From the NCBI RefSeq assembly GCF_003236175.1, contig NZ_QKTW01000019.1, positions 193,818 through 257,817 of the forward strand: a stretch of 64,000 nt of DNA, given 5' to 3'. Positions 5,625 to 64,000 of the stretch are shown piece after piece; the first letter of the stretch is position 1, and every line of letters starts with the position of its first letter. The DNA is from Taibaiella soli (GTDB lineage Bacteria; Bacteroidota; Bacteroidia; Chitinophagales; Chitinophagaceae). The translations under genes were made by a program, and so were the position numbers. Under the pieces are notes generated by a model, which saw only the letters and a list, made by a program, of their open reading frames with translations, ran no database searches and was not told the origin of the DNA.

Positions 5625-6716
5625 TTATTTTTTCTTCAACACCAATATAGTGTGACTCACCCCCAAATTATCAATATCTTTTGTTACTTCAAAACCTGCC
5701 CGATCGACCAATTTCAAAAAAACAGCACTATCGTACATCTGGCTGTTGCCATTGGCCATAGTGGTAAAATATAACGAAGTCATTTGCAGGCTAAATGCCG
5801 ATGCTTCAAACTTCTGACGATCCCAAAAAGTTTCGTTGATAAACACGTGGCCATTGTCAGGCAATGCTTCATGGCATTTCTGCAAAATCGAAACGATTTC
5901 GTCGTCAGCAAAGCAATCGAGAAACTGACTCATCCAGATAATATCAAATCCTGTGGGCAGTCTGGACGCTGCATCCAGCACATTGCAGGTATGATAAGAA
6001 ACACGGTCACCGAATCCTTCGGCTTCTATATTCTTCTGTGCTACGTTCAGTTGCACCTGCAAGTCCACTAAACCGACATGCACTTCTTTATCATAGTTCA
6101 GACAAGAGAGTGTAAATTTTCCAGTGTTTGCACCGATGTCCATTACTTTTTTCGGTGCAGATTCAAACACTATTGGTAACGCTTCAGGAAAAGCATTATC
6201 GGAATAATAATGGTCAAAGTTAAACCAGCTGCTATGCGCAGGTTCGGGGAGTATGGAAAGTCCCTGATAGATGGTATCCCAGCTGCCGAGATGTCTCAGG
6301 CCACGCGGTTTTCCGTCGGTCAGACTTTGATCCAGATCTTGCGCGCCATCATAACACACATCACGCATAAAATCGGCATTTACACGTGTCATCGGATGAT
6401 TCAGGAAGAAATGACCCAGTTTCGATAGAAAATATTTGTCTTCTTTGCGATAAACAAGCTTTATGCCCAGTCCTGCTTCCAGTAAAATCCGCAGCGTGTA
6501 GTGCGGCAAATTCAATTTTGCTTCCAGCGCTTCAATGGTGATTCCATTTTGGCGGGAGGCTTCTACTTCTTTCAGAATTCCTTTATCTCTCAAAAGCATG
6601 GAAGCCTGAAATACATATGGGGCAAATGCTATAAACTGCGCCTGCGAAATAGCTTCGAGGGCACTCATTTTATCGTCTTCAAACAATGCGGGCTTTTTTA
6701 CTGATACTTCCGACAT
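5625..6716 (-). CDS. SAM-dependent methyltransferase (O-methyltransferase-like)
   Basis: A 363-residue class I methyltransferase with an N-terminal winged-helix dimerisation region (about residues 25-100: LRDKGILKEVE, ILLEAGLGIKL) as in small-molecule O-methyltransferases, followed by the SAM fold. Motif I is VMDIGANTGKFTLSC; GLVDLQVQLNVAQ supplies the acidic residue for the ribose; CNVLD and FDIIWMSQFLDCF follow. It is the first gene of the five-gene minus-strand cassette and probably methylates an intermediate or the aryl head group of the product. The substrate cannot be deduced. No clear promoter was found in the short upstream spacer. Confidence 0.87.
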   Translation of the reverse strand: MSEVSVKKPALFEDDKMSALEAISQAQFIAFAPYVFQASMLLRDKGILKEVEASRQNGITIEALEAKLNLPHYTLRILLEAGLGIKLVYRKEDKYFLSKLGHFFLNHPMTRVNADFMRDVCYDGAQDLDQSLTDGKPRGLRHLGSWDTIYQGLSILPEPAHSSWFNFDHYYSDNAFPEALPIVFESAPKKVMDIGANTGKFTLSCLNYDKEVHVGLVDLQVQLNVAQKNIEAEGFGDRVSYHTCNVLDAASRLPTGFDIIWMSQFLDCFADDEIVSILQKCHEALPDNGHVFINETFWDRQKFEASAFSLQMTSLYFTTMANGNSQMYDSAVFLKLVDRAGFEVTKDIDNLGVSHTILVLKKK

Positions 6717-6854
6717 ACAATCTAATTATTTTAAAACAGGGAATCCTGGCGTTTTCAACGCGCAATTTAACTGAAACGTCGGAATCTCGGATCGCTGATG
6801 TTTGATTTTTTGATTTTCGGCGGCTGTTCGCAGCCAAACAGAAAACAAAGAAAA

Positions 6855-6886
6855 ACGGTCGGACGACTTTGGAGCCATCCGACCGT
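6855..6886 (-). terminator. Rho-independent terminator downstream of cytochrome c gene
   Basis: A 9-bp stem, ACGGTCGGA (6855-6863) with TCCGACCGT (6878-6886), has a 14-nt loop and is followed on the minus strand by TTTTTCTTTG. It ends the lepB-cytochrome c transcript. Its stem resembles the hairpin at 39681-39712. Confidence 0.8.
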
Positions 6887-6919
6887 GTACTTTTTTATTT
6901 TTGAATTTTGACTTCAAGT

Positions 6920-7315
6920 CTATATATCACCATTTTTCAGGTAATCCACAATCTTATTCAATTCATCATCCGTCAGATTCGGGAACGGTGTCATTACCGT
7001 ACTCGCCCATTTATGAAACAGATCCGTCGTATACTGATCGCCTGAAGCGATCACTGCGGAACTATTGCGGATAAAGGCTTTCATCTTCGTCGTGTCATTA
7101 TTCCATCTATCGAACACACCTTCCAGCTTCGGGCCGGTTTTATCTTGCTTCATATCGTGACAGATCGCACAGTTGTTGACAAAAAGAGCTTTTCCTTCAC
7201 TCATTTTAGGAGTCTCTGTATATGGATTAGAAGAAGTATTGTTTCCCGAATTGTTACAGGCAAAAAAATACGTACTTGCCACCAGTGCAGATAAGATCAA
7301 TAAACGTCGTTTCAT
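6920..7315 (-). CDS. Class I cytochrome c, lipoprotein
   Basis: A periplasmic electron carrier of 131 residues. The N-terminus is a lipoprotein signal (MKRRLLILSALVASTYFFAC) with Cys20 as the lipidated residue, so it should be membrane anchored. One haem-binding site, NCAICHDM (CxxCH), is present; the distal ligand is probably the Met in STVMTPFPNL. The rest (ALFVNNC, GPKLEGVF, LTDDELNKIVDYL) is the usual mono-haem cytochrome c fold. It lies four bases after signal peptidase I on the same strand, so the two are probably co-transcribed, and is followed by a terminator. The redox partner is unknown. Confidence 0.92.
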   Translation of the reverse strand: MKRRLLILSALVASTYFFACNNSGNNTSSNPYTETPKMSEGKALFVNNCAICHDMKQDKTGPKLEGVFDRWNNDTTKMKAFIRNSSAVIASGDQYTTDLFHKWASTVMTPFPNLTDDELNKIVDYLKNGDI

Positions 7316-7319
7316 GAAA

Positions 7320-8537
7320 CTATTTTTCTAAAGAATGAATACTACGGAAGATGCGGCGCCAGCGGAAATCTTTAAACATTCCTTCCTTGCCATAGCTCAG
7401 CCATACAAACCATGCCTTACCCACTACGTGATCTTCCGGCACAAAGCCCCAATAACGAGAATCCAGTGAATTATGACGGTTATCACCCATCATCCAGTAA
7501 TAATCCATTTTAAAGGTATAGCTCGTTGCAGCCTGACCATTGATGATAAACTGTCCACCTTTTTCTTCCAGCGTGTTGCCTTCGTACACACCAATGATGC
7601 GACGATAAATAGAAATATTTTGCGGCGTCAATGTGATCGTTGTTCCTTTTTTAGGAATCATCAGCGGACCATAATTATCGCGGTTCCATTTGTAGTTCGC
7701 TGTATCATAAGGGAACGGCAGATATTCTGCTTCTACAAAACCTTTAGGATAAAACGCAGGCGTTACAGAAGCCACGCCAGGTTGTTGTTTTACCACATCT
7801 ACCTGATCGTTTTCCATCATGTAGTAAAAGCTCTGCGCGTCGCCTGGCGCAAAAGATGGATCCTGATCAATATTGCTGCGCTCCATAAAATCAGCCGACA
7901 GACCGCCGGAATTTGATTTTACGAGGAAGGTTGTTTTTGAGTGTGGGAATGTTGGCGTTGGTTTATCATTGATGTAAGCGACACCATCTCTTACTTCCAG
8001 TTTATCACCCGGAATACCGATACAACGTTTAATATAGTTATCCGTTTTATCTACCGGACGTACAATAATATCACCAGAACTTAACACCGCATCGCGACCA
8101 AAACGGCGGCAAAGCGCATAATAATCGGCTTCTGGCTGTTCTTTCAAAACAGTATCACCATTTGGAAAGTTAAATACCACTACATCATAACGCTCTACAT
8201 CTCCAAAACCCCACCAGCGATGGTATTTCCATTTTACAGCATCAGTGTATGATTTACCGCCTGTAATAGGCATGGTATTATGAACGAGCGGAACTGCAAG
8301 CGGCGTCATCGGCACCCGCGGACCGTAAGATAATTTGCTGACAAACAAGTAGTCATTTACCAGCATACTGCCTTCCATGGACGGTGTAGGGATGGTGTAG
8401 GCTTCTACAAAAAACGTGCGTATAATGGTTGCTGCCACAATCGCAAAAACCGCAGCGTCTACCCACTCACGCCAAACAGGTTTCTTTTTTTTATTTTTTG
8501 TGTCCTTTTTATTCTTTTTCCAAAAGGCAAGTTGCAT
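7320..8537 (-). CDS. lepB: Signal peptidase I
   Basis: Membrane-bound serine protease (family S26) that removes signal peptides from exported preproteins. A Lys-rich N-terminus precedes one transmembrane helix (about residues 26-44). Catalytic Ser53 lies in IPTPSMEGSM and catalytic Lys170 in DNYIKRCIGIPGDKLEVRDG; box E is MMGDNRHNSLDSRYWGFVP. At 405 residues it is longer than proteobacterial LepB because of an insertion between the Lys and GDNR boxes, which is usual in Bacteroidota. A perfect -7 box TACTTTTG lies 21-28 bp upstream of the ATG. The cytochrome c gene follows with a four-base gap. Confidence 0.96.
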   Translation of the reverse strand: MQLAFWKKNKKDTKNKKKKPVWREWVDAAVFAIVAATIIRTFFVEAYTIPTPSMEGSMLVNDYLFVSKLSYGPRVPMTPLAVPLVHNTMPITGGKSYTDAVKWKYHRWWGFGDVERYDVVVFNFPNGDTVLKEQPEADYYALCRRFGRDAVLSSGDIIVRPVDKTDNYIKRCIGIPGDKLEVRDGVAYINDKPTPTFPHSKTTFLVKSNSGGLSADFMERSNIDQDPSFAPGDAQSFYYMMENDQVDVVKQQPGVASVTPAFYPKGFVEAEYLPFPYDTANYKWNRDNYGPLMIPKKGTTITLTPQNISIYRRIIGVYEGNTLEEKGGQFIINGQAATSYTFKMDYYWMMGDNRHNSLDSRYWGFVPEDHVVGKAWFVWLSYGKEGMFKDFRWRRIFRSIHSLEK

Positions 8538-8557
8538 AGAGAATGATATAATGTGGT

Positions 8558-8565
8558 CAAAAGTA
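8558..8565 (-). promoter_or_regulatory. -7 promoter element of lepB
   Basis: TACTTTTG on the minus strand, a perfect match to the Bacteroidota -7 consensus TAnnTTTG, 21 bp from the lepB ATG. No clear -33 TTG at standard spacing. Confidence 0.55.
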
Positions 8566-8736
8566 CGGCTAAAGATAAAAGATAAAAGTTAAAACTAAAT
8601 CGATTGCGGATGACGGAGAAATGCCATAGCCTTCTGATTACACAATGTTTGCCTCCTTTCGCCGCATGCCTGCTTTTTATATACTACCTGCTATGCTCCT
8701 TTTTGACTATTTTGCGAAAAAATAGGATTTAGTATC

Positions 8737-53159: not shown

Positions 53160-54062
53160 ATGCAAAAACCACTTCTGATTCTTAGTAGCTATGAGTACAA
53201 AAAGCAATTTCTGCCAGACATCAATACGCGGATATTGTATGACAAATCTCATCTGCAACTGTACCGGATAGAGCATTATCTAAAGGAGATTGTGATTCCC
53301 GTACCTCCTTACCGCACGTCATTTAACTTTATGGTGTTCGTTACAAAAGGATTTTTGCGCCAGCAGCTGGAAAGCGAAAATTATATTGTCGGTCCGGGAC
53401 AGATCTTAAATATAAAGAGAGGCAGCATTACCCGAACCCATGAACTTTCGGATGATATTGAAGGCTTTTATCTGATCTATGAAAGTGATGTGGTCACAAC
53501 GGTAACGCTAAGTCAGCAGGACTTTACGTTCTTTTCATCCAGTCCGTTTGCAAACATTCCCGAGCAGCTGCACAGCTGGATGACGAAGGCTTTTGAATTA
53601 CTGGAAGAAGAACTGCACGCAGCGGCAACACAAGATGCTGTAAGCATTGCCCTTTTTCGCTCGATACTGCTTAAGATCATTGCACAGCTGCCACATAAAC
53701 CGCTGGCTATAGCACGTGAGCTGGAGATTATGCATAAATTCAGAGAGCTGGTACAGCAACAACATTCAGAACATAAAGAAGTATCTTTTTATGCACGCAC
53801 TTTAAATATTTCAGAGACTTATCTCAATAAATGTGTAAAGAAAGCTACTGGAAAACCGCCCAAACAGTGGATCAATGAAGTCTGTATTTTGCACAGTCAG
53901 ATCCTGCTTCGCGATATGGGCCGTGATATTGCAGATGTAGCCGATAGCCTCAATTTCCAATCGCTGTCGCATTTTTCGCGCATGTTTAAGAAAGTGACCG
54001 GCAAATCACCGTCGGCTTTCAGAGCGGACAATACTTCTGGCGAACAGGCAAAGAGCGTTTAA
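53160..54062 (+). CDS. AraC-family transcriptional regulator
   Basis: A 300-residue regulator. The N-terminal half (about 1-180) is a cupin-like effector domain (YRTSFNFMVFVTKGFLRQQL, YIVGPGQILNIKRGS). The C-terminal AraC/XylS domain has two helix-turn-helix units: EVSFYARTLNISETYLNKCV with KKATGKPPKQWI, and DIADVADSLNFQSLSHFSRM with FKKVTGKSPSAF. Usually an activator responding to a small ligand. It ends three bases from the convergent TonB receptor gene at the 3' end of the urease run, and is divergent from the 52032-52871 outer-membrane gene; either could be its target. Confidence 0.93.
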   Translation: MQKPLLILSSYEYKKQFLPDINTRILYDKSHLQLYRIEHYLKEIVIPVPPYRTSFNFMVFVTKGFLRQQLESENYIVGPGQILNIKRGSITRTHELSDDIEGFYLIYESDVVTTVTLSQQDFTFFSSSPFANIPEQLHSWMTKAFELLEEELHAAATQDAVSIALFRSILLKIIAQLPHKPLAIARELEIMHKFRELVQQQHSEHKEVSFYARTLNISETYLNKCVKKATGKPPKQWINEVCILHSQILLRDMGRDIADVADSLNFQSLSHFSRMFKKVTGKSPSAFRADNTSGEQAKSV

Positions 54063-54065
54063 TGA

Positions 54066-56297
54066 TCAGAAGCAGTAAGTCAGGCCTCCTTTAAGAAAGA
54101 AAGGAGTGCCTGGTGTAAAGGTAAGATCTTCGACACCGGCTGCTGGTTCGCCTTTCAACCTCGTGGTTTCCGCAAACATTGCCTCATTCCACTGTACGTT
54201 AAACAGATTCTGGACCTGCATACTCAGTTCCCATTTCCGCCAGCGATAAGCCGCTAAAAAATCGTTTACAAAATAGCCTTTAGCCACAACGCTATTGTCT
54301 TGCGTAGCAGGACGGTCATGCATGTAACGATAACGGAGATTAAAAGTAAATCCATTTTTCGTCTGCACACCAATGCCACCTGTACTAGTGAGCGTGGGTG
54401 CCAGTTCCACATAATTATCGCCTTTAGGTGCATCTATCAAACGCGGCACCGCCCAGTTGAGATCAGCATCGAAATACAGAAATGGAAATGGTTGATAGCG
54501 TACCGAAAAATCAGCACCAAACCTGCGCGTAGCACCTACATCACTAACACCGTATTCATCACCATTCCAGACATACTCACTACTCATATAAGTGTACCAG
54601 AGTATAGGCCGAATGATCAGACCTTTTGCAGGTTTAATCGCCGCCCCCAAATCAGCACCCGCCGAATGAGGGAGAATATCAGCACCTTGCTGCAGCACCA
54701 CATCGCGCACGTCATTGGAATGAAAACCTAAACCTGTTTTTACATACAGGCTAACGTTATCTGAAAGATTGTAAAAAACGCTGAATTTAGGACTTACACG
54801 GGCTTTATTGTAGGAGGTACTATTGTAGTCTGGCTGCAGTTTATCATAATAGTTAAAGTAAAACCAATCGGCGCGCACACCGCCATAAATCCGCCATCTT
54901 CCAGAGGTAAGTTCTGCGGAAGTATAGGCATTCAGATTTCCTTCTTGTGCTTTGCCCCAGGCGAGTCGCTCATTCAGCGTGTTTCTGGCCGTTACATAAC
55001 TGAGCTCCAGATCATGAATATCATCAAAACGACCACCAATGCCTGATGTCCAGTCCAACTTGTAGTGATTGAAAAAGAAATGCTGCGTGTAGCTATGATT
55101 CATGCCATAGACATCGCGGTTATCGTACTGACGGATTTCATCACCCAGATCCGGGTGCACCAGATAAAAAGTGAAATTGGAATAAAGATTGAACACATAA
55201 TGAGAATAGTAAAAACTGCTTTTCCATTCCTCGCGACTATTGGGTCGATATGTGTAGCTGGCCGACACGTTGATTCGTGAAGTACTACCACCTTCTGTTG
55301 TATCAATAGATCCAAATCGGTCAATCAGCCCTTCCGATACCGCACGTTCGGGAATCTGCCCCGATGCATTCCAGCTTGAATTGAATACCGAGGCCTGCAC
55401 ATTAAATCTTCCGAAGCGACCTACATTCTGATTGTATTTCCCGAAAAGATTTAATCGGCCGAAATCTTGTTTTACATGAAACGGCCCGTCTGTATAGTTG
55501 TATTCACCTGCAATGTAAGCATTGCGCTGCGCAGAATCTTTATGTAATAAATTCACCACACCCATAATCCGGGCGGTATTAAAACTGCCTCCTTCTATTT
55601 TCACCATGCTATTGCTGACAGCATCAAAAGTGTGGAAAGTGACGTACCCGGATGTATTAAAATCACCTTTATCCGCATAATAAGATCCTTTACCAAAATC
55701 TATACTTTCAATGGTTTCCGGAATCAGGAAATGAAGATCGGAATAGCCTTGACCATGTGCATGTGAAGGCATATTCACGGGAATATCATCTGCGCTGATA
55801 GCAATATCTGTTCCGTGATCGTTGTCGAAGCCGCGCAAAAAAATCTGTTCTGCTTTTCCGCCGCCGGCATGTTGTGCAATAAAAAGTCCGGGCACTTTCC
55901 GCAACAAATCCTGTGCTGTATTTGCAGGTGTTTTATCCAGGTCAATTTTCATCAACTGTCCTTCAGCCTGCTTAGAAGTAATCACCACCTCGTTCAAAGC
56001 ACCATCATAAGAATGCATAGCTATATGCAGTTCTGCGCGCTGTAACACCGGGTAATATTGACTTTTAAAGCCGGCAAGTGACACAATCAACGTATCGGGC
56101 AAATGTTGCAGCGTGATCTGAAAACTTCCGTCCTGTTGGGTCATTGTGGTGGCGCCATTGCTGCTGCAAGACACAATGGCACCTACCAACAAATGTTTTT
56201 TATCATCTGTAACAATTCCGTTTATTTTTTGCTGCGCGAAAAGCGGAGTAAAACAACAGAACAACAACACTAGTATAACAACAGACCTCTTACCCAC
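54066..56297 (-). CDS. TonB-dependent receptor with histidine-rich plug
   Basis: A 743-residue outer-membrane active transporter. Signal peptide ends FAQQ (about residue 22); carboxypeptidase-like domain about 23-105; plug about 115-230; barrel after that, ending in YCF. The plug contains an unusual histidine cluster, FDNDHGTDIAISADDIPV with His161 and NMPSHAHGQGYSDLHF with His179, His181 and His189, suggesting transition-metal binding. It is the last gene of the urease run, 11 bp after the porin gene, so nickel is the obvious candidate substrate (compare nickel TonB receptors of ureolytic Helicobacter). The start is GTG 56297; no suitable ATG is available. Substrate is inference. Confidence 0.88.
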   Translation of the reverse strand: MGKRSVVILVLLFCCFTPLFAQQKINGIVTDDKKHLLVGAIVSCSSNGATTMTQQDGSFQITLQHLPDTLIVSLAGFKSQYYPVLQRAELHIAMHSYDGALNEVVITSKQAEGQLMKIDLDKTPANTAQDLLRKVPGLFIAQHAGGGKAEQIFLRGFDNDHGTDIAISADDIPVNMPSHAHGQGYSDLHFLIPETIESIDFGKGSYYADKGDFNTSGYVTFHTFDAVSNSMVKIEGGSFNTARIMGVVNLLHKDSAQRNAYIAGEYNYTDGPFHVKQDFGRLNLFGKYNQNVGRFGRFNVQASVFNSSWNASGQIPERAVSEGLIDRFGSIDTTEGGSTSRINVSASYTYRPNSREEWKSSFYYSHYVFNLYSNFTFYLVHPDLGDEIRQYDNRDVYGMNHSYTQHFFFNHYKLDWTSGIGGRFDDIHDLELSYVTARNTLNERLAWGKAQEGNLNAYTSAELTSGRWRIYGGVRADWFYFNYYDKLQPDYNSTSYNKARVSPKFSVFYNLSDNVSLYVKTGLGFHSNDVRDVVLQQGADILPHSAGADLGAAIKPAKGLIIRPILWYTYMSSEYVWNGDEYGVSDVGATRRFGADFSVRYQPFPFLYFDADLNWAVPRLIDAPKGDNYVELAPTLTSTGGIGVQTKNGFTFNLRYRYMHDRPATQDNSVVAKGYFVNDFLAAYRWRKWELSMQVQNLFNVQWNEAMFAETTRLKGEPAAGVEDLTFTPGTPFFLKGGLTYCF

Positions 56298-56308
56298 GGA
56301 TATTTTGT

Positions 56309-57574
56309 CTAAAAGCCCACCATAATGCCAGCAGCAATACGGTTGACCGCAGAGCTCTGGTTGACGGTATTAATAATTTGTTTGGAACCTGTATTATATT
56401 CCACACCGATGGTGAAATTCTTGGTAACATCCCACATCGCATTCAGCGCGACAAAGGTGAGCCCAACATGCGTTGTAGATTCGGTATTCTTATTTACGAA
56501 ATCACCCGCCGCATTGTCATTAACGACACTGCTCTGTACCAATGATGCCGGAGTTGCATTGTATGACATACTTGTGTAACCGAGTACCAGATTGGAATGC
56601 AATCTTTTCTTCGCTCCGAAGAAATATTCAATACCTGCAGAACCGCCCAATACGGGAACAGTTTTGAAAGCGCCTGTCTGATCGTAAATACCATCGTACA
56701 TATTGCCAGCACCGCCATTGCCAAACAACTCACCGGAGAGCGTATACGAACCGGCAATACCAGAGCCTGCAAGCCCTTGCACCATTACGTTGCTCTTCTC
56801 ATCTATTTTTGCTTTGAAATTGGCATTAACTCCCCAGCCCATCGTCATTTTGTTGGTAGTCGGATTTTCTTCATAACGAATGCTGCGACCCATTACTGCT
56901 AAACGCGCAAAACCCCAGTCGGACAAGCCTTTGGTAACTGCCACAATCGGATCAACAGAAAACTGACCAGGTGTAGGACCACCAGCGATTTTGAGATATT
57001 GAGCGGTAGTCTCAATACCACCTTCTATTTTCCAGGACTTATCTTCCCCGAAGTTGTTATAATATTTCACCTGCAGATGTCGTGCCCAGGTACCCGAATT
57101 CGGGCCTTCCCAATCAAGTGTGTTGTACCAGGTAGGCACACCGCCACCGAAGAATGTCCAGTCCTGACCTATATGCCAGTGATTGTAATCAACGTAAGCC
57201 ACACGCAGCTGCAAATTACCGCCGGCACCCGGCGCGCCCCACCATTGGCCTTCTACATAAGTAACCAAAGGGCCTTTTGCAAAACCATTGTAAGTTGTCT
57301 TCCACGCAAGTTGCGTCTGATACATATTACCATCTGCATTTTTGTCTTTCAACGGATTATATGGATCCGCGGAATTCGCATTCAGCGATTGCGATGTATT
57401 GATATCATTGCCACCCAAATTCAGGTAGCCATTCAATTTTAATCTTGGTGAAAATTCCATCTCGTATAATGGCTTGCCATCGGCAGTCTGCGCCTTCGAC
57501 GAGAATGAGATCTGGGAATATGCGGCCTGACCTGCTGCCAGACATAATACGCACAATAATGTATGTTTTTTCAT
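56309..57574 (-). CDS. DcaP-like outer-membrane porin
   Basis: A 421-residue outer-membrane protein. Signal peptide about 1-20 (MKKHTLLCVLCLAAGQAAYS). The body has features of DcaP-type trimeric porins: FSPRLKLNGYLNLGG, VTYVEGQWWGA, LQLRVAYVDYNHWHIGQDWT and WEGPNSGTWARHLQVKYYN, and closes with MVGF (C-terminal Phe). DcaP proteins pass small polar or anionic solutes. Placed between the urea channel and the TonB receptor genes with 38- and 11-bp gaps, it may serve urea entry across the outer membrane. Family assignment is by motif recall and is moderately sure. Confidence 0.75.
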   Translation of the reverse strand: MKKHTLLCVLCLAAGQAAYSQISFSSKAQTADGKPLYEMEFSPRLKLNGYLNLGGNDINTSQSLNANSADPYNPLKDKNADGNMYQTQLAWKTTYNGFAKGPLVTYVEGQWWGAPGAGGNLQLRVAYVDYNHWHIGQDWTFFGGGVPTWYNTLDWEGPNSGTWARHLQVKYYNNFGEDKSWKIEGGIETTAQYLKIAGGPTPGQFSVDPIVAVTKGLSDWGFARLAVMGRSIRYEENPTTNKMTMGWGVNANFKAKIDEKSNVMVQGLAGSGIAGSYTLSGELFGNGGAGNMYDGIYDQTGAFKTVPVLGGSAGIEYFFGAKKRLHSNLVLGYTSMSYNATPASLVQSSVVNDNAAGDFVNKNTESTTHVGLTFVALNAMWDVTKNFTIGVEYNTGSKQIINTVNQSSAVNRIAAGIMVGF

Positions 57575-57612
57575 ACTAGTACTTTTATAAAAAACTCAGC
57601 GGTATTAAAATA

Positions 57613-58479
57613 TTAATTGGTGGATTGTGGTATCAATTTTTTGATTGGAATCGTGATCCAACAGGCTGCCACAAATGGGAACGTGAGATACGGCGTAAAA
57701 GAAAGTTTGATCATGAACACTTCAATAGCGATCGCCAACAGCACAGAAATCAAAACAAATATGCCATCTTTCTGTTTAACGCCTGCAAATGTAATGGCAC
57801 ACAAAACTGCATTGAAACTGAACATCCCCTGTGAAATACCAGCTATTGGCTCTGCCAGATAAAAAGCTACAACAGCGCTGATTACGGAACCTGCCAGACC
57901 ATACAAAGCAGCAATAGGACTAGAAAGAAAAACACCGATGATAAATAACACCCCAGCGACAATACTAGCCTGGAAAATAACCTCGCCAAATCCGCGGCTG
58001 GAGAGCACCAGATCATCCAGATCATGATCGGCGGGAACTATGCTGGCTACAGGTGCATTAACTTTATACACGTGGGTGAAAACATAATACAGTATCCACG
58101 TCACCAATATAAAAGGGAATGTAAAACCCGGCACTTTCCTGCTAATAAATAAATGCTGCAGTATCGTTGCAACAACGGAGCCAACAACAATAGCAATCCA
58201 AACGATGAGCGCCGGTTCAAAAAAAGTAACCATGCCCACGCCAACAAGTGTGGCGCTAAAGCCATACAAGCCCATATTAATATTTTCTTCCGGGTACTTT
58301 AGCACCTTCGCAGTAAGCGTACCGACTACAACGGCGAGTACAGCTGCCAGCCCAAGGATATAAGAATCGAAAAAGATACCTGCCAGAAAAAACAAACCTG
58401 TCCAGGCGCTATCCTGAAGCATGATCTGCCCAACACCTTTCAGGTAAGGTGTTGCGAAAAATGTTTTGTTTTCGTTCAT
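57613..58479 (-). CDS. Urea transporter (UT family)
   Basis: An inner-membrane channel of 288 residues with about ten helices. UT-family repeats are visible: MGLYGFSATLVGVGMVTFF in the first half and GMFSFNAVLCAITFAG in the second, each carrying the conserved small-residue loop that lines the urea filter. It passes urea into the cytosol for urease. ATG 58479 (MNENKTFF) is preferred because the frame upstream to 58590 overlaps the preceding gene. It lies 43 bp after the nickel-permease-like gene and 38 bp before the porin gene. Confidence 0.9.
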   Translation of the reverse strand: MNENKTFFATPYLKGVGQIMLQDSAWTGLFFLAGIFFDSYILGLAAVLAVVVGTLTAKVLKYPEENINMGLYGFSATLVGVGMVTFFEPALIVWIAIVVGSVVATILQHLFISRKVPGFTFPFILVTWILYYVFTHVYKVNAPVASIVPADHDLDDLVLSSRGFGEVIFQASIVAGVLFIIGVFLSSPIAALYGLAGSVISAVVAFYLAEPIAGISQGMFSFNAVLCAITFAGVKQKDGIFVLISVLLAIAIEVFMIKLSFTPYLTFPFVAACWITIPIKKLIPQSTN

Positions 58480-58522
58480 CGTTTTGATGTTTTTAATGAA
58501 GCGTGTGTGTGATTTTATCTTT

Positions 58523-59224
58523 TTACCAGCCAAGGAATAAAACGCCGACGCCACAGATAGTAACGACAGCGCCGCCAATGGCGTGAACATAACGTTCCAG
58601 TTTGTCTGTCTTGAAAAATGAATAGCCGTAACAACCGATCAGTACCATAGTAAGCATGGTGAGCACTGTAAACACTGCAAAGACGGTTATAAGCACAATA
58701 ATTTCTAATGAAGAACGACGCACGCCAGAATAAAACAATAGCGGAACAAGCGGTTCACTGGGTCCCATTACAAAAATGGCAAACAATATCCAGGGTGTAA
58801 TCTTCACCCGGTTTTGCGGCAACACTGCCTCGCCATGCCGGTGCTCATACACATAAATATCTTCGTTGTTGTACACTTCGAAATGCTTGTGCGGCTTGTT
58901 GAGATACGCTTTACGAAGTCCCCACAACAAATAGGCAATACCAAACAGTAACAGGCACCAGCCTGAAACATTCCCCCTGATATCCTGAAATACAGACAAG
59001 CGGGAGAGTTGCCAGCCTACCAGCACGCCAATAAGTCCGAGCAATACTGAACTCAAAATATGTCCGATACCACAAATGACCGTCCACCAGATTGTTTTAG
59101 AAATACTCCATTTTCTGGATCGCGACAATACAATAAACGGCAGATAATGATCCGGACCGGAAGCGGTGTGCAGACAGCTAATCGTAATTGCTGACAGTAT
59201 GAGTGTGGTTAATGTAGTATTCAT
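58523..59224 (-). CDS. Nickel-permease-like membrane protein (UreH/NicO type)
   Basis: A 233-residue inner-membrane protein with about six helices. The second-half-first motif HTASGPDHYLPFIVLSRSRK matches the HxxxxDH-type metal-binding helix of nickel/cobalt permeases and UreH, with GIGHILSSVLLGLIG as the following GH motif. A central His-containing loop (KPHKHFEVYN, YEHRHGEAV) faces the cytosol or periplasm. Within a urease operon, this protein most likely supplies nickel to UreE/UreG. ATG 59224 is preferred to an adjacent GTG. It lies 26 bp after ureD. A TauE/SafE-type label is an alternative. Confidence 0.83.
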   Translation of the reverse strand: MNTTLTTLILSAITISCLHTASGPDHYLPFIVLSRSRKWSISKTIWWTVICGIGHILSSVLLGLIGVLVGWQLSRLSVFQDIRGNVSGWCLLLFGIAYLLWGLRKAYLNKPHKHFEVYNNEDIYVYEHRHGEAVLPQNRVKITPWILFAIFVMGPSEPLVPLLFYSGVRRSSLEIIVLITVFAVFTVLTMLTMVLIGCYGYSFFKTDKLERYVHAIGGAVVTICGVGVLFLGW

Positions 59225-59250
59225 CACTTATTCTTTTGCGCCATCATTTT

Positions 59251-60090
59251 TTATGCTGTCACTGCTGCTACGACGGGAGTAATTTCTTTATGAGCTAGCA
59301 TTGTCGGGACCGCGTCGTTCCAGAGTTGTCGTTGTATTTGCCGGAATGCGTTATACAATTGCTCTCCGCCATTTCCCAAAACACGCACCATCATACAAGA
59401 AGCAAATGGTTGGGAAACACCAAAAGCAATGTCTTCTTCTCCTTCCAGGAAATGATAGGTACGCTCTATCACTTCTTCCAGATCCTGCGCGCCGGTATTG
59501 ATGTGTATCAATGTAGCCTGATGCGTAAAGCCTTCCATTTGTCCAATCGTCATCATATCTGCCAGTTGTGGTTGCAGCAGCACATTGTCTTTCAAAACGA
59601 TTTTATTTTTGTAAAAGACTTCTGTCAGATTCTGAAACTTTGTGTAACGAAACACTTCGCCGGAATGTTTTCTGCCACAGGTTATGATTTCGCCCAGCGT
59701 AAAACTGCTGTTATCTGCCAGCTGAACAATATTATGAGCTTTGAAGATGGACTGTTCGTGCGGTACCACCGGGTGCTGGATATAGCTGAAAGTACTTTCT
59801 GACGAAAGATTAATCTTCATTTCCTGCTGTGCACCGGTCTGCATATTAAACAACCGCTGGTAAGACTGTGACTCCAGCAGCAGTCGGCTACCGGGTTCCA
59901 GCTGGATGTTTATATCGTAATGATCATTATCCAGTATACCCGGAGAAGAGCTCATCACCATCAGATACAAAGACGGATCCGATCTGTCTTCTCCAATATT
60001 GGCAACGCGGAACGGGCGGGTAAAGAAGGTGTCTTTCAGATAAGAACGCCCTTCTTTATATCCCGTAGTTATATTTAGTCTGTTGATCAT
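59251..60090 (-). CDS. ureD: Urease accessory protein UreD
   Basis: Scaffold of the urease activation complex: UreD binds apo-urease and recruits UreF and UreG. The 279-residue product shows UreD features FTRPFRVANIGED, LMVMSSSPGILDNDHYDINI, SRLLLESQSYQRLF and HPVVPHEQSIFKAHNIVQL, as well as FTLGEIITCGRKHSGE. Typical length. It follows ureG by 30 bp, giving the order E-F-G-D on the minus strand. Confidence 0.93.
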   Translation of the reverse strand: MINRLNITTGYKEGRSYLKDTFFTRPFRVANIGEDRSDPSLYLMVMSSSPGILDNDHYDINIQLEPGSRLLLESQSYQRLFNMQTGAQQEMKINLSSESTFSYIQHPVVPHEQSIFKAHNIVQLADNSSFTLGEIITCGRKHSGEVFRYTKFQNLTEVFYKNKIVLKDNVLLQPQLADMMTIGQMEGFTHQATLIHINTGAQDLEEVIERTYHFLEGEEDIAFGVSQPFASCMMVRVLGNGGEQLYNAFRQIQRQLWNDAVPTMLAHKEITPVVAAVTA

Positions 60091-60120
60091 TTTTGTGTCG
60101 TTGAATTGCTGTACAATGCA

Positions 60121-60759
60121 CTATCTCACTAATTCCGGCTCCTCTACGCTTTCAAGCAGCGCATATTTCTTAATCCAGCCAATCACTTTATCTAATCCTT
60201 GCAGACTCATAAGATTGGTGAATACGAATGGCTGACCGTTGCGCATTTTACGTGCATCACGTTCCATAACACCGAGATCTGCATTTACATAAGGCGCGAG
60301 GTCAATTTTATTGATCACGAGCAAATCTGATCGGGTAATGCCAGGACCACCTTTGCGTGGAATTTTATCACCTTCGGCAACATCAATAACGAAAATGGTA
60401 ACGTCTGCAAGATCCGGACTGAAAGTAGCTGAAAGATTATCACCACCGCTTTCAATCAATATCAGTTCTATTTCAGGAAAGCGGGATGCCATTTCTTCTA
60501 CTGCTTCCAGATTCATACTCGCGTCTTCACGGATAGCAGTATGCGGGCAACCACCTGTTTCTACGCCGATAATGCGTTCTTTAGGCAAGGAACTGTTTTT
60601 GGTAAGGAACTCGGCATCTTCCTTTGTGTAAATATCATTGGTGATAACGCCGAGACTGTATTCATTCATAAGTTTGCGGGAAAGGCGTTCCAACAATGCA
60701 GTTTTACCTGATCCTACAGGACCTGCCACACCAATTTTTACATATTTTCTCTCTTGCAT
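60121..60759 (-). CDS. ureG: Urease accessory GTPase UreG
   Basis: SIMIBI-class GTPase that powers nickel insertion into urease. The 212-residue product has the P-loop [16 protein letters not shown] (about 11-26), the metal-binding CPH motif in [18 protein letters not shown], the switch [17 protein letters not shown] and the guanine-specificity [11 protein letters not shown]. No N-terminal His-rich extension is present, so UreE and the permease would provide nickel storage. It follows ureF by 67 bp. Confidence 0.97.
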
Positions 60760-60826
60760 TTTTTAGGTTTTAAACGTTTTGTAATGTTTGAAAAATCAGC
60801 TGATGTTTGAAAAATGTCTTGATCAT

Positions 60827-61513
60827 TTAAGACATGTACAATCTGGAATAAAGTCGCTCGTGCTGCATACAACGGACATCCAGGCCGATATTACAAAGCC
60901 CTACCAGATTGCGATCCAGTTGCAAAACATTTTCTACAAGCGTTCCGATAACAGGCTGCATATCACACAAAATATCCTGGCCGTCAAGCTGGCCGAGCGG
61001 CACTAATTTCACGGCATTAGTAACCATGCCCACTGTGGCGTTATAAAAGAAAGCGTACAACGCTTCATGAACAGGTATATTCAGCAAGGCGGCATAGATG
61101 CCAAATGCAATGCAATAATGGCCTTCAGACTTCTTTGAAACAATTGCTGCTTCGTATGCGTCAATAATTTCAGACGCCTGCTGACGCTTAAATATTTTTA
61201 TCAACCGGAGACCTAGTTTCTGGCTTGCCTGTCTGATTTCACGTGCCGTCTTCAATGCAGCACATTCATCGTCGAGTTGCTGCAACATAGTAATGTCTCC
61301 ATTTTGTGTTGCCTCATAAGCCAGCCGTACAAATGCAGCATCATTATACTGCAGATTGTTGGTTAGCATATTGCGCACAAATAATGCAGCTGTTGCTGTA
61401 TCCTTTACCAACTTTTGCTGTACATAAGTTTCCAATCCGTTAGAATGACTGTAACCGCCGATCGGTAAGGTTGGATCACTCAGATGAAGTAAACTTCCGA
61501 TAAAATTTTTCAT
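60827..61513 (-). CDS. ureF: Urease accessory protein UreF
   Basis: All-helical partner of UreD and UreG in the urease activation complex, acting as an activator or gate for UreG. The 228-residue product has the N-terminal signature LLHLSDPTLPIGGYSHSNGL and GLETYVQ, and the C-terminal ALYAFFYNATVGMVTNAVKL with PLGQLDGQ, typical for UreF. It begins four bases after the ureE stop, so it is translationally close-coupled. Confidence 0.94.
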   Translation of the reverse strand: MKNFIGSLLHLSDPTLPIGGYSHSNGLETYVQQKLVKDTATAALFVRNMLTNNLQYNDAAFVRLAYEATQNGDITMLQQLDDECAALKTAREIRQASQKLGLRLIKIFKRQQASEIIDAYEAAIVSKKSEGHYCIAFGIYAALLNIPVHEALYAFFYNATVGMVTNAVKLVPLGQLDGQDILCDMQPVIGTLVENVLQLDRNLVGLCNIGLDVRCMQHERLYSRLYMS

Positions 61514-61517
61514 AGCC

Positions 61518-62015
61518 TTATTTTCCGAGATTCATGATTTTAAAGAAAAGCGAACTGTTGCTTCCATGTCCGTGCGGCTGCACGGTAGCATTGAGCAGGT
61601 TCATCAGGCGTGTATGTGTTTTCTGCGTATTATAACCACTTACGGTCAGCCATTTAAAAATCGGTTCTTCGAATGGCAGCAGTACTTCATCATTCTGAAT
61701 GAACATCGGCAAATGCTTATTGCCAATTTCATAGCAAACACTGCCCATTTCCAGTAAAGACGCAGGTTTCACGACAATGGCATCACAAGGAATAATATCA
61801 ACTACAACAACAGTTTCATCGTCGATCAGCAAAATATCATCCTGTCTTAAGCGTTGCCCCTCTTTCAGAAATTTGATGGCGATGTCTCTTCCGCTTTTTG
61901 TCTTCTTTCGCTGAATACGCTTTGTAGCTTCAAACCATTCTATCTGCAACAAATCCACCACACGGTTTCCGGGATCGAATTGTTTCAGATTGCCTGCTAC
62001 TTCATTTATGATCAT
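61518..62015 (-). CDS. ureE: Urease nickel metallochaperone UreE
   Basis: Dimeric chaperone that delivers nickel to the UreG/UreD/UreF complex. The 165-residue product has the N-terminal peptide-binding domain and the metal-binding domain with the conserved YEIGNKHLPMFIQ (the central nickel His). The tail contains QPHGHGS, a short His-bearing end rather than the long His tail of some UreE proteins. It follows ureC by 111 bp, with an intercistronic hairpin between. Confidence 0.94.
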   Translation of the reverse strand: MIINEVAGNLKQFDPGNRVVDLLQIEWFEATKRIQRKKTKSGRDIAIKFLKEGQRLRQDDILLIDDETVVVVDIIPCDAIVVKPASLLEMGSVCYEIGNKHLPMFIQNDEVLLPFEEPIFKWLTVSGYNTQKTHTRLMNLLNATVQPHGHGSNSSLFFKIMNLGK

Positions 62016-62057
62016 GTGTTAGCTCTTTTAAAACGCGTTTTTTAATGTCTGAAATCC

Positions 62058-62094
62058 GGAGAATGAGTTGCAGGCAATGCCTGCAACATTCTCC
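62058..62094 (-). other. Intercistronic hairpin between ureC and ureE
   Basis: A 16-bp stem with a two-base bulge: GGAGAATG-AG-TTGCAGGC (62058-62075) pairs with GCCTGCAA and CATTCTCC (62079-62094), loop of three. On the minus strand it is not followed by a T-run, so it is unlikely to be a simple terminator; it could stabilise or process the polycistronic mRNA and lower accessory-gene expression relative to structural genes. Confidence 0.7.
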
Positions 62095-62126
62095 TTTGTC
62101 TTATCAATAAGACAGCCCCAGATATT

Positions 62127-63848
62127 TTAGAACAAGAAATAACGCTGTGCCAATGGCAATTCCTTGGCTGGTTCGCAGGTTATCTTCTCGCCATCTACAC
62201 GTACTTCGTAGTTTTCCGGATTTACTGTGATCTCCGGAGTTTTATCATTATGAATGAGATGCTTTTTAGAAATATTGCGACAACCGACTACCGGCAATAC
62301 CATTTTTTTCAAACCGTATTCTTCCACAATATTATTTTTCAGCGAAGCCTGAGATACAAACGTAGCGCAGGTTGTAGACAATGCATTACCAAACGCGCCA
62401 AACATATTGCGGTAGATAACCGGTTGCGGCGTTGGAATAGATGCGTTCGGATCGCCCATGCGTGCTGCGATAATCATGCCGCCTTTAATGATGATTTCCG
62501 GTTTTGCACCGAACAGCATTGGCTTCCACAATACGATATCGGCCATTTTACCTGGTTCGATAGAACCTACGTATTGAGAGATACCGTGTGCAATTGCCGG
62601 ATTGATGGTGTATTTTGCTACGTAACGTTTTGCGCGGAAGTTGTCATTTTTATGACCTTTATCTTCTTCCAGTTCGCCGCGTTGTTTGCGCATTTTATCC
62701 GCAGTCTGCCAGGTGCGCGTCACTACTTCACCCACACGGCCCATTGCTTGTGAATCCGAACTCATAATGCTGAATACGCCCATATCGTGCAGGATATCTT
62801 CTGCTGCGATGGTTTCCGGACGGATACGTGAATCCGCGAAGGAAACATCTTCCGGAATATTTTTACTCAGGTGGTGACATACCATCAGCATATCCAGGTG
62901 CTCATCGATTGTATTTACAGTATACGGACGAGTTGGATTGGTAGATGCAGGCAGTACATTCGGGTACATTGCCGCTTTGATGATATCTGGCGCGTGACCG
63001 CCACCAGCACCTTCTGTATGGAAGGTATGTATTACACGACCGTTGATGGCGTTCATCGTATCTTCCAGGAATCCCGCCTCATTGAGTGTATCAGTATGGA
63101 TGGCAATTTGCACATCGTATTTATCCGCCACTTTCAGTGACGCATCGATTACAGCAGGTGTTGCACCCCAATCTTCATGAATTTTCAAACCAAGCGCACC
63201 AGCTTCGATTTGTTCTTCCAAAGGAGCTTCTGTAGAGCAGTTACCTTTACCGAAGAAACCGAGATTCATCGGGAACGCTTCAGCTGCCTGCAGCATTTTT
63301 TCAATGTACCATTTACCAGGGGAAATAGTAGTTGCATTAGTTCCGTCTGCCGGACCAGTACCACCACCTATCATGGTTGTAACACCACTGTACAAAGCTG
63401 TTTCAATTTGCTGCGGACTGATGAAGTGAATATGCGTATCAATACCGCCGGCCGTTGCAATCAGGTTTTCACCACCATGCGCTTCTGTACTGGCACCAAT
63501 GATCATGTTCGGATGCACGCCGTCCATTGTATCCGGATTACCGGCTTTACCAATACCTACGATCTTACCGTCTTTGATACCGATATCCGCTTTCACGATA
63601 CCCCAGTGGTCGATGATGGTTACGTTTGTAATAACGAGATCCAGCACACCCTGATCACGAGTAGCCGTGCTCGACTGAGACATACCATCACGGATGGTTT
63701 TCCCACCGCCAAATTTATTTTCATCGCCATAAACAGTATAGTCCTTTTCTACTTCGATGATAATATCCGTATCGCCAAGGCGCACTTTATCACCAGTTGT
63801 GGGCCCGTACATGCCGGCATATTTCAGCTTACTTATTTTGAGGCTCAT
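62127..63848 (-). CDS. ureC: Urease subunit alpha
   Basis: Catalytic subunit that hydrolyses urea to ammonia and carbamate at a di-nickel centre. The 573-residue product has all ligands: His139 and His141 in [11 protein letters not shown], carbamylated Lys222 in [12 protein letters not shown], His251 in [10 protein letters not shown], His277 in [15 protein letters not shown], catalytic His325 beside flap Cys324 in MVCHHLSKN, and Asp365 in SSDSQAMGR. Numbering is offset by five from the Klebsiella enzyme. It starts one base after the ureB stop. Structure and length indicate an active urease. Confidence 0.98.
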
Positions 63849-63849
63849 G

Positions 63850-64000
63850 CTATTTGTTTTTGAAGTTTTCTGATTTGAGTTTAGCTAAGCTGTGTTGTTT
63901 ATTGACCTCAAGTGTGGTGTCTCCGTTGACCAGATTATTGATACCAAATGCGCGTCTGCCACCTCCGAAAGCAACGAGCTCCACTTCTTTTTCTTCACCG
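63850..64000 (-). CDS. ureB: Urease subunit beta (partial, C-terminal end)
   Basis: I translated the reverse strand from the window edge: [20 protein letters not shown] and [10 protein letters not shown], then a Lys-rich end with stop TAG at 63850-63852. This is the conserved C-terminus of the UreB beta subunit, which packs on UreC. Only about 49 residues are present; the N-terminal part and ureA lie beyond the window. The stop is one base from the ureC ATG, showing tight coupling. A fused UreAB protein cannot be excluded. Confidence 0.93.

Follow-up and report, generated by a model that had tools for sequence, protein, structure and literature searches.

How do urea and nickel reach a cytosolic urease that lies behind two membranes? 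The question is raised by a minus-strand gene cluster at the end of a 64,000-nucleotide stretch of the Taibaiella soli genome (contig NZ_QKTW01000019.1, positions 193,818 to 257,817, hereafter the window), in which the urease genes are followed by genes for a candidate inner-membrane permease, a UT-family urea channel, a DcaP-like porin and a TonB-dependent receptor. Nickel is a requirement of urease and, by its content, the locus is a nickel-dependent urease operon, since the structural genes and the accessory genes ureE, ureF, ureG and ureD were all found. We consider it probable that urease, its assembly proteins and a supply route for both nickel and urea across the two membranes are all encoded in this one operon. 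Nickel would cross the outer membrane by the TonB-powered receptor and the inner membrane by the permease, to be inserted into urease by UreE, UreG, UreF and UreD; urea would diffuse through the porin and then through the UT channel to the cytosolic enzyme; and an AraC-type neighbor would control the unit.

In order of transcription, the unit reads ureA-ureB-ureC-ureE-ureF-ureG-ureD-permease-UT-porin-TonB receptor (Table 1). The window ends inside ureB, and the contig beyond it supplies the rest of this gene and ureA, so the unit has eleven genes (both were read on the flanking locus L002 of the same contig, in which a coordinate plus 52182 gives the window coordinate). A first-pass annotation of the window had listed at least ten of these minus-strand genes, from ureB to the TonB receptor, and the open reading frames and protein families agree with it. 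The spacing of 1 to 111 bp that it gave is correct for most junctions (18 bp between ureA and ureB, 1 bp from there to ureC, then 111 bp to ureE, 4 bp to ureF, 67 bp to ureG, 30 bp to ureD and 23 bp to the permease gene, with 38 bp between UT and porin and 11 bp between porin and receptor), but the permease and UT frames, as called, overlap by 68 bp. The true start of UT is probably about 37 codons inside the called frame.

Table 1. Genes of the urease unit and its convergent neighbor, in window coordinates
Feature	Position	Strand	Basis
ureA	corresponds to 64237-64539, beyond the window	-	read on L002
ureB (urease beta)	63850..64000, continuing to 64218 past the window end	-	read on L002
ureC, urease alpha subunit, 573 amino acids (aa)	62127..63848	-	PRK13207 and TIGR01792 above cut-off
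ureE, nickel chaperone, 165 aa	61518..62015	-	PF02814 (2.4e-13); NF009754 above cut-off
ureF, 228 aa	60827..61513	-	PF01730 (7.7e-44)
ureG, GTPase, 212 aa	60121..60759	-	TIGR00101 (2.8e-114)
ureD, 279 aa	59251..60090	-	PF01774 (9.9e-44)
UreH-like inner-membrane permease, probable nickel importer, 234 aa	58523..59227	-	alignment members and ureD adjacency
UT-family urea channel, 325 aa as called	57613..58590	-	PF03253 (6.2e-67)
DcaP-like outer-membrane porin, 421 aa	56309..57574	-	predicted fold
TonB-dependent receptor, 743 aa, GTG start	54066..56297	-	barrel, plug and CarbopepD_reg_2
AraC-family regulator	53160..54062	+	PF12833 (2.7e-21)

The genes for the outer-membrane proteins recur beside ureC in other genomes. 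We found six full-length matches to the porin model in 249 Flavobacterium genomes, 35 of which have ureC; all six are urease-linked, at distances of 5.9-7.3 kb from ureC, and the chance of all six falling among the 35 ureC genomes is 5e-6, with their distance not yet considered. A scan of GTDB genome contigs with the porin, which reports close relatives only, gave six genomes, all Flavobacterium and all with the match within the urease locus (one full-length porin each, plus a distant partial match in one of them). The grouping of urease and porin is thus more than chance. Among the same 35 Flavobacterium urease loci, UT is present in 27, the permease in 23 and the receptor in 13 (including L050, L052, L053 and L055), the receptor being found in six of the seven loci with any porin versus 7 of the 28 without (p 0.006). 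L050 and L078 have the same order of permease, UT, porin and TonB receptor, and so do L052-L055, where a RidA gene separates the UT and porin genes. Elsewhere the receptor gene comes 2-6 bp after UT (five loci) or 19 bp after it (L081), or overlaps it (L049). A protein with three RidA (YjgF) domains (L052 8498-9775) is also recurrent in Flavobacterium, inside urease loci or next to them and not always in the same position; it was not found in the window.

The same surveys show that the outer-membrane components can be done without over evolutionary time, which weighs against a supply route tied to urease. The receptor is missing from 22 of the 35 Flavobacterium urease loci, although four of these (L072, L074, L079 and L080) are cut by contig ends, so the absences there are not firm. 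One of the six full-length porins has an internal stop and stands in a locus without a receptor (L076), another locus has the porin and no receptor (L051), a third has a receptor with an internal stop (L089, counted among the 13), and at the equivalent place in L083, the seventh locus with a porin trace, there is a remnant of 47 residues. In the window's own family we had 195 genomes, 47 of them with a ureC match at E 0.001, of which 19 strong ones (E <1e-50, the window's included) were counted and 28 weak partial ones dropped; leaving out five of the 18 other loci that are cut by contig ends, only one of the 13 with intact downstream flanks has the receptor (L049 of genome G176, with receptor and UT), and none has the porin. 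The co-occurrence with ureC that the first-pass annotation proposed to look for is therefore borne out in part, being seen in Flavobacterium but not as a trait of the family, and the receptor and porin module is a minority form, sometimes broken or lost. When a sample of 395 genomes from the phylum was searched with the porin model, matches came only from this genome and two distant relatives (L069 and L070). The 19 kb retrieved for these relatives gave no homologue of the other operon proteins, and a link to urease is thus not a feature of the porin family at large.

The receptor has the PF07715 plug and the PF00593 barrel above cut-off, and a search of the PDB with its sequence gave no match. 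We compared 16 urease-linked receptors (this genome, G176 and 14 Flavobacterium loci) with 20 non-urease Flavobacterium copies, sampled from 80 other match rows with the best-scoring ones included, and with relatives on plasmids, of which 18 were opened out of 49 records (13 annotated and five unannotated). In the tree of these 54 receptors, all 16 urease-linked sequences form one clade (99/97), which was recovered at 100/99 in a second tree with the paralogue from the same genome added and seven plasmid rows removed. The nearest rows outside this clade are L119 and L141, which have long branches and whose exact placement is unsure. Conserved motifs of the receptor are QH, DHGTD, HAHGQG and FHSND, with residues (in the numbering of the window protein) that include Q142, H143, D160, H161, D164, H181, Q183 and H526, counting as conserved what is shared by 16/16 urease-linked, >90% of the 20 non-urease and >85% of the 18 plasmid sequences.

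The metal context of the relatives points to nickel and cobalt. In seven of the 13 annotated plasmid contexts there are nikR, HoxN/HupE permease or hydrogenase genes near the receptor: the relative is beside hydrogenase and HoxN in Cupriavidus, beside hyp genes and nikR in Afipia, between HoxN and hydrogenase genes in Bradyrhizobium (we take Bll6948 to be of the same kind), beside HupE/UreJ in Hymenobacter, beside nikR and HoxN in Paraburkholderia, and beside nikR in Methylomagnum and Polymorphobacter. Among the five unannotated records, Novosphingobium RL4 is the sole case with homologues of this type (nikR and NicO). A control family of siderophore receptors, read likewise, was metal-linked in none of seven opened contexts (p 0.02). 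In Flavobacterium, three of the 20 non-urease copies have a tested nickel or cobalt gene nearby: L110, with a HupE homologue; L114, where homologues of hydrogenase genes and of hypB lie at some 2-5 kb; and L119, where the receptor is beside NicO, CbiX, CobD and a tetrapyrrole methylase. The only other receptor copy found in the genome of T. soli itself (L141) belongs to a cluster of nitrile hydratase genes that includes a NicO permease.

Several of these observations tell against nickel as the cargo. No His, Cys or Met residue was found to set the urease-linked receptors apart, so we claim no sequence mark of nickel specificity. The three metal-linked Flavobacterium copies stand against nine of the 20 beside DUF4331/TPR genes and eight beside neither kind, and both Adhaeribacter plasmid relatives are beside DUF4331, with no nickel-type neighbors. 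The Sphingobium, Methylobacterium XJLW and Indioceanicola relatives have no nikR, HoxN, HupE or hydrogenase link, and the Methylorubrum CM4 one, which is not among the seven nickel-linked contexts, has cobalamin genes about 3 kb away. The first ten plasmid contexts were picked partly by organisms known for nickel enzymes, so 7/13 may exceed the true rate; flanks were 6 kb in three of the 13 and 8 kb in the others. The receptor family is enriched for, not limited to, nickel or cobalt neighbors. Even so, a nickel cargo seems likely to us from gene context, because a permease and UreE/UreG are encoded alongside and nickel is then the most economical reading within a urease operon.

An ECF (extracytoplasmic function) sigma factor gene is often near the DUF4331/TPR-linked receptor copies (L104 3267-5978 and similar). 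The cluster at L141 4111-8848 (G000:C10, at about 274-279 kb) encodes nitrile hydratase, NicO, a thioredoxin-like [2Fe-2S] protein and the TonB receptor, and its nitrile hydratase is split into separate genes for the C-terminal part of beta, alpha, and the N-terminal part of beta. In L119, a frame of 873 amino acids (5998-8619) fuses the thioredoxin-like [2Fe-2S] domain to the TonB receptor, the two being separate overlapping frames in L141.

That the receptor instead carries cobalt or a multi-metal chelate, a general nickel/cobalt role explaining its place in a urease operon, appears unlikely to us. It would fit the nearest relatives outside the urease clade, which are in cobalamin and cobalt-type nitrile hydratase clusters (the alpha subunit of L141 contains VCTLCSC, presumably the cobalt-type motif), as well as the plasmid copy close to cobalamin genes mentioned above. 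The operon itself, however, has no cobalt enzyme, urease needs nickel, the neighboring permease is of a group that recurs next to ureD across many urease loci, and no [NiFe] hydrogenase was found in the genome, which leaves urease as its only nickel enzyme among the two families tested for.

The permease was called nickel-permease-like in the first-pass annotation, a label on weaker ground than the DcaP-like one of the porin. PF13386, which we take to be the family containing UreH, is matched by 10 of the 31 members of the permease alignment (best 1.3e-7), whereas the window permease gives no match above a Pfam cut-off. We take it as UreH-like, partly on that assumed content of PF13386. Its gene adjoins ureD here, and the protein has the motif HTASGPDH and conserved histidines at positions 113, 115 and 129. 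The Afipia permease encoded between hypB and nikR gives a weak colinear match to it (E 0.005, probability 7%). A search with its model structure gave a best match at only E 0.26, and the VIA scores (Z <=7.3) were uninformative. Its assignment as a NiCoT transporter was tried and rejected: the signatures (R/K)HAXDADH(I/L) in transmembrane segment 2 and LGX(D/E)T(A/S)(T/S)E in segment 5, as given in the available part of a review (PMC7689651), are replaced by HTASGPDH and GPSEP, and profile comparison with four NiCoT/NicO proteins gave a probability of 0.7%. The window protein resembles UreH and NiCoT permeases in being a small inner-membrane protein with an H...DH motif, encoded beside a nickel enzyme, a gene position described for UreH permeases in the accessible text of PMC2667541; it differs in having neither the NiCoT signatures nor a structural match in our search. 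The UT channel matches PF03253 over residues 49-315 (profile positions 4-289 of 292), with a urea transporter in the PDB, 3k3f, matching at E 6e-39, although its 170 bits are below the 274.6 of the TIGR03441 'yut' cut-off.

The porin has no sequence match in Pfam (to E 10), NCBIfam or the PDB, and the confidence of its AlphaFold2 model is modest (pLDDT 58.6, pTM 0.63). The best PDB match of that model is Acinetobacter DcaP, 6eus (Foldseek E 7.6e-11), which also came first of 999 chains in VIA with Z 22.5 over 314 residues (within model residues 21-419, 17% identity), OmpK36 being next at 20.8. The DcaP-like label of the first-pass annotation thus holds on the predicted fold. A distant relative of about 25% identity (the protein of L069) matches the Pfam DcaP family PF19577 at 1.6e-8; the window porin does not, and it differs from the Acinetobacter protein also in standing in a urease operon. 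The solved DcaP is thought to carry dicarboxylates, not urea, which counts against a urea route. We would give urea about an even chance of being the cargo of this porin, from its place next to UT and its strict link to urease. Seven loci of the 249-genome sample have a receptor and no porin trace, and in six of them a DUF2490 gene follows the receptor (L082 14513-15316 and five others); we take DUF2490 to be an outer-membrane barrel, and the protein could be a stand-in for the porin.

The porin, and perhaps the receptor, might alternatively take up a different nitrogen compound, for instance a short amide or a ureide, for conversion to urea within the cell. Catabolic clusters often include AraC and RidA genes, and the AraC gene here and the RidA genes in Flavobacterium loci would agree with this, as would the DcaP fold, that of a small-solute porin, which leaves the substrate undefined. 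We nevertheless judge it improbable, given that the porin's neighbor gene encodes a urea channel and that the six flanking genes tested gave no family for amide or ureide breakdown. One of these encodes an amine-oxidase-like flavoprotein, one a MarR regulator and one an ABC ATPase, and the other three matched no family.

The history of the locus was followed through sequence identities. The rpoB of T. soli is 71% identical to that of three Flavobacterium genomes and 84-86% to that of four members of its own family, so that these Flavobacterium genomes are inferred to belong to another family. Its ureC, in contrast, is 93-94% identical to that of Flavobacterium loci L050, L076 and L078 and at most 85% within its own family, and most other operon genes follow the pattern of ureC. 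The exception is the UT protein, only 49-53% identical to those of L050, L076 and L078, which suggests that the UT gene was separately replaced. Transfer of the block between distant lineages is strongly indicated by these comparisons. The idea that the outer-membrane genes are just passengers of a mobile urease cluster, adding little, draws on these strong signs of horizontal transfer and on the patchy presence and the broken and remnant copies, but it is quite unlikely when the receptor clade is urease-linked in 16 of 16 sequences from the family of T. soli and from Flavobacterium, the gaps to the operon are short in most loci, and a DUF2490 protein follows the receptor in those six of the seven loci without porin.

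A wider reading would have this receptor family include the nickel/cobalt outer-membrane receptors of many Gram-negatives, with copies beside urease, hydrogenase, nitrile hydratase and B12 synthesis, and with one branch dedicated to urease, where the porin would complete a substrate and cofactor line passed as a unit between distant lineages. We hold this reading tentatively, just short of an even chance. The narrower proposal in the first-pass annotation, of matched outer- and inner-membrane steps for substrate and cofactor, finds partial support in the gene content and the recurring urease link; the nickel of the receptor comes from context only and the urea of the porin from its position, and the arrangement is not a general trait in the family.

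The operon genes are, in our estimate, very likely cotranscribed. The Bacteroidota -7 promoter element is TAnnTTTG, and this motif does not occur in any gap between the operon genes, where the first-pass annotation had regarded separate promoters for porin and receptor as a possible refutation of a shared unit. Within the UT gene, however, some 0.2 kb ahead of the porin gene (L002 5604-5635), there is a match with one mismatch to TTTG-N-TAnnTTTG; an internal promoter that gives additional, separate transcripts of porin and receptor is therefore possible, a point against a single unit. Scans for consensus sigma-70 promoters (32 versus a mean of 27.4) and for terminators (12 versus 11.8) were near background, and neither was used. 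The gap between ureC and ureE (62016-62126) contains an inverted repeat, GTTGCAGGC...GCCTGCAAC, with no T run on the transcribed strand, which is possibly an RNA processing or stability hairpin.

The AraC-family gene, absent from the first-pass annotation, is convergent with the operon and lies 3 bp from the stop of the TonB receptor, and a homologue over at least 94% of its length is present in 24 of the 35 Flavobacterium urease loci. On this basis the adjacent protein more probably than otherwise controls the urease unit. UreR is the AraC-type urea-sensing activator of enterobacterial urease operons, and here too an AraC-family gene adjoins urease genes, as in the Providencia plasmid locus used for comparison. 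Homology of the UreR type was rejected beyond the helix-turn-helix: the similarity to the AraC protein of Providencia, which we take as UreR, is confined to that end, with a match of only 32 residues (E 0.011).

The closest published operon that we found, judging from the available text of its description, is ure2 of Brucella abortus, ureABCEFGDT-nikKMLQO, where one transcript covers urease, the urea transporter UreT and the nickel importer NikKMLQO; mutations in either transport system altered the activity of urease or the resistance to acid in certain conditions (PMC2868824). Like the window operon, it has the urease genes first and then genes for urea transport and for nickel import (the latter a probable role in the window); it differs in its importer of the energy-coupling factor type, in place of the UreH-like permease, and the porin and TonB receptor are additions of the window operon. 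The portion of that text available to us uses none of the terms outer membrane, TonB and porin. Named nickel TonB receptors include FrpB4, FecA3, NikH, CntO, Bll6948 and others (PMC11247825, PMC7689651), to which the window receptor is akin in being TonB-dependent and in its nickel context, as with its Bradyrhizobium relative; in the accessible parts of these sources they are not placed in a urease operon, whereas the window and Flavobacterium receptors are a distinct, urease-linked clade. According to a 2021 review, an outer-membrane receptor specific for cobalt had yet to be confirmed, while the receptors it names for nickel are those of Helicobacter (PMC7689651); a 2024 paper lists a few more nickel outer-membrane receptors (PMC11247825). 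We found no title or abstract reporting a urease operon with a TonB receptor or a porin, in a literature search with most subscription journals outside its coverage.

As no published urease operon was found with an outer-membrane step for urea or nickel, the window operon adds to the known ure2-type arrangement. The crossing of the outer membrane by nickel and cobalt is poorly known, and the urease-linked receptor and the receptor of the nitrile hydratase cluster are a related pair within one genome whose predicted metals differ, so that a direct comparison is possible. The operon would also allow the outer-membrane step for urea to be probed through the loss of a single gene.

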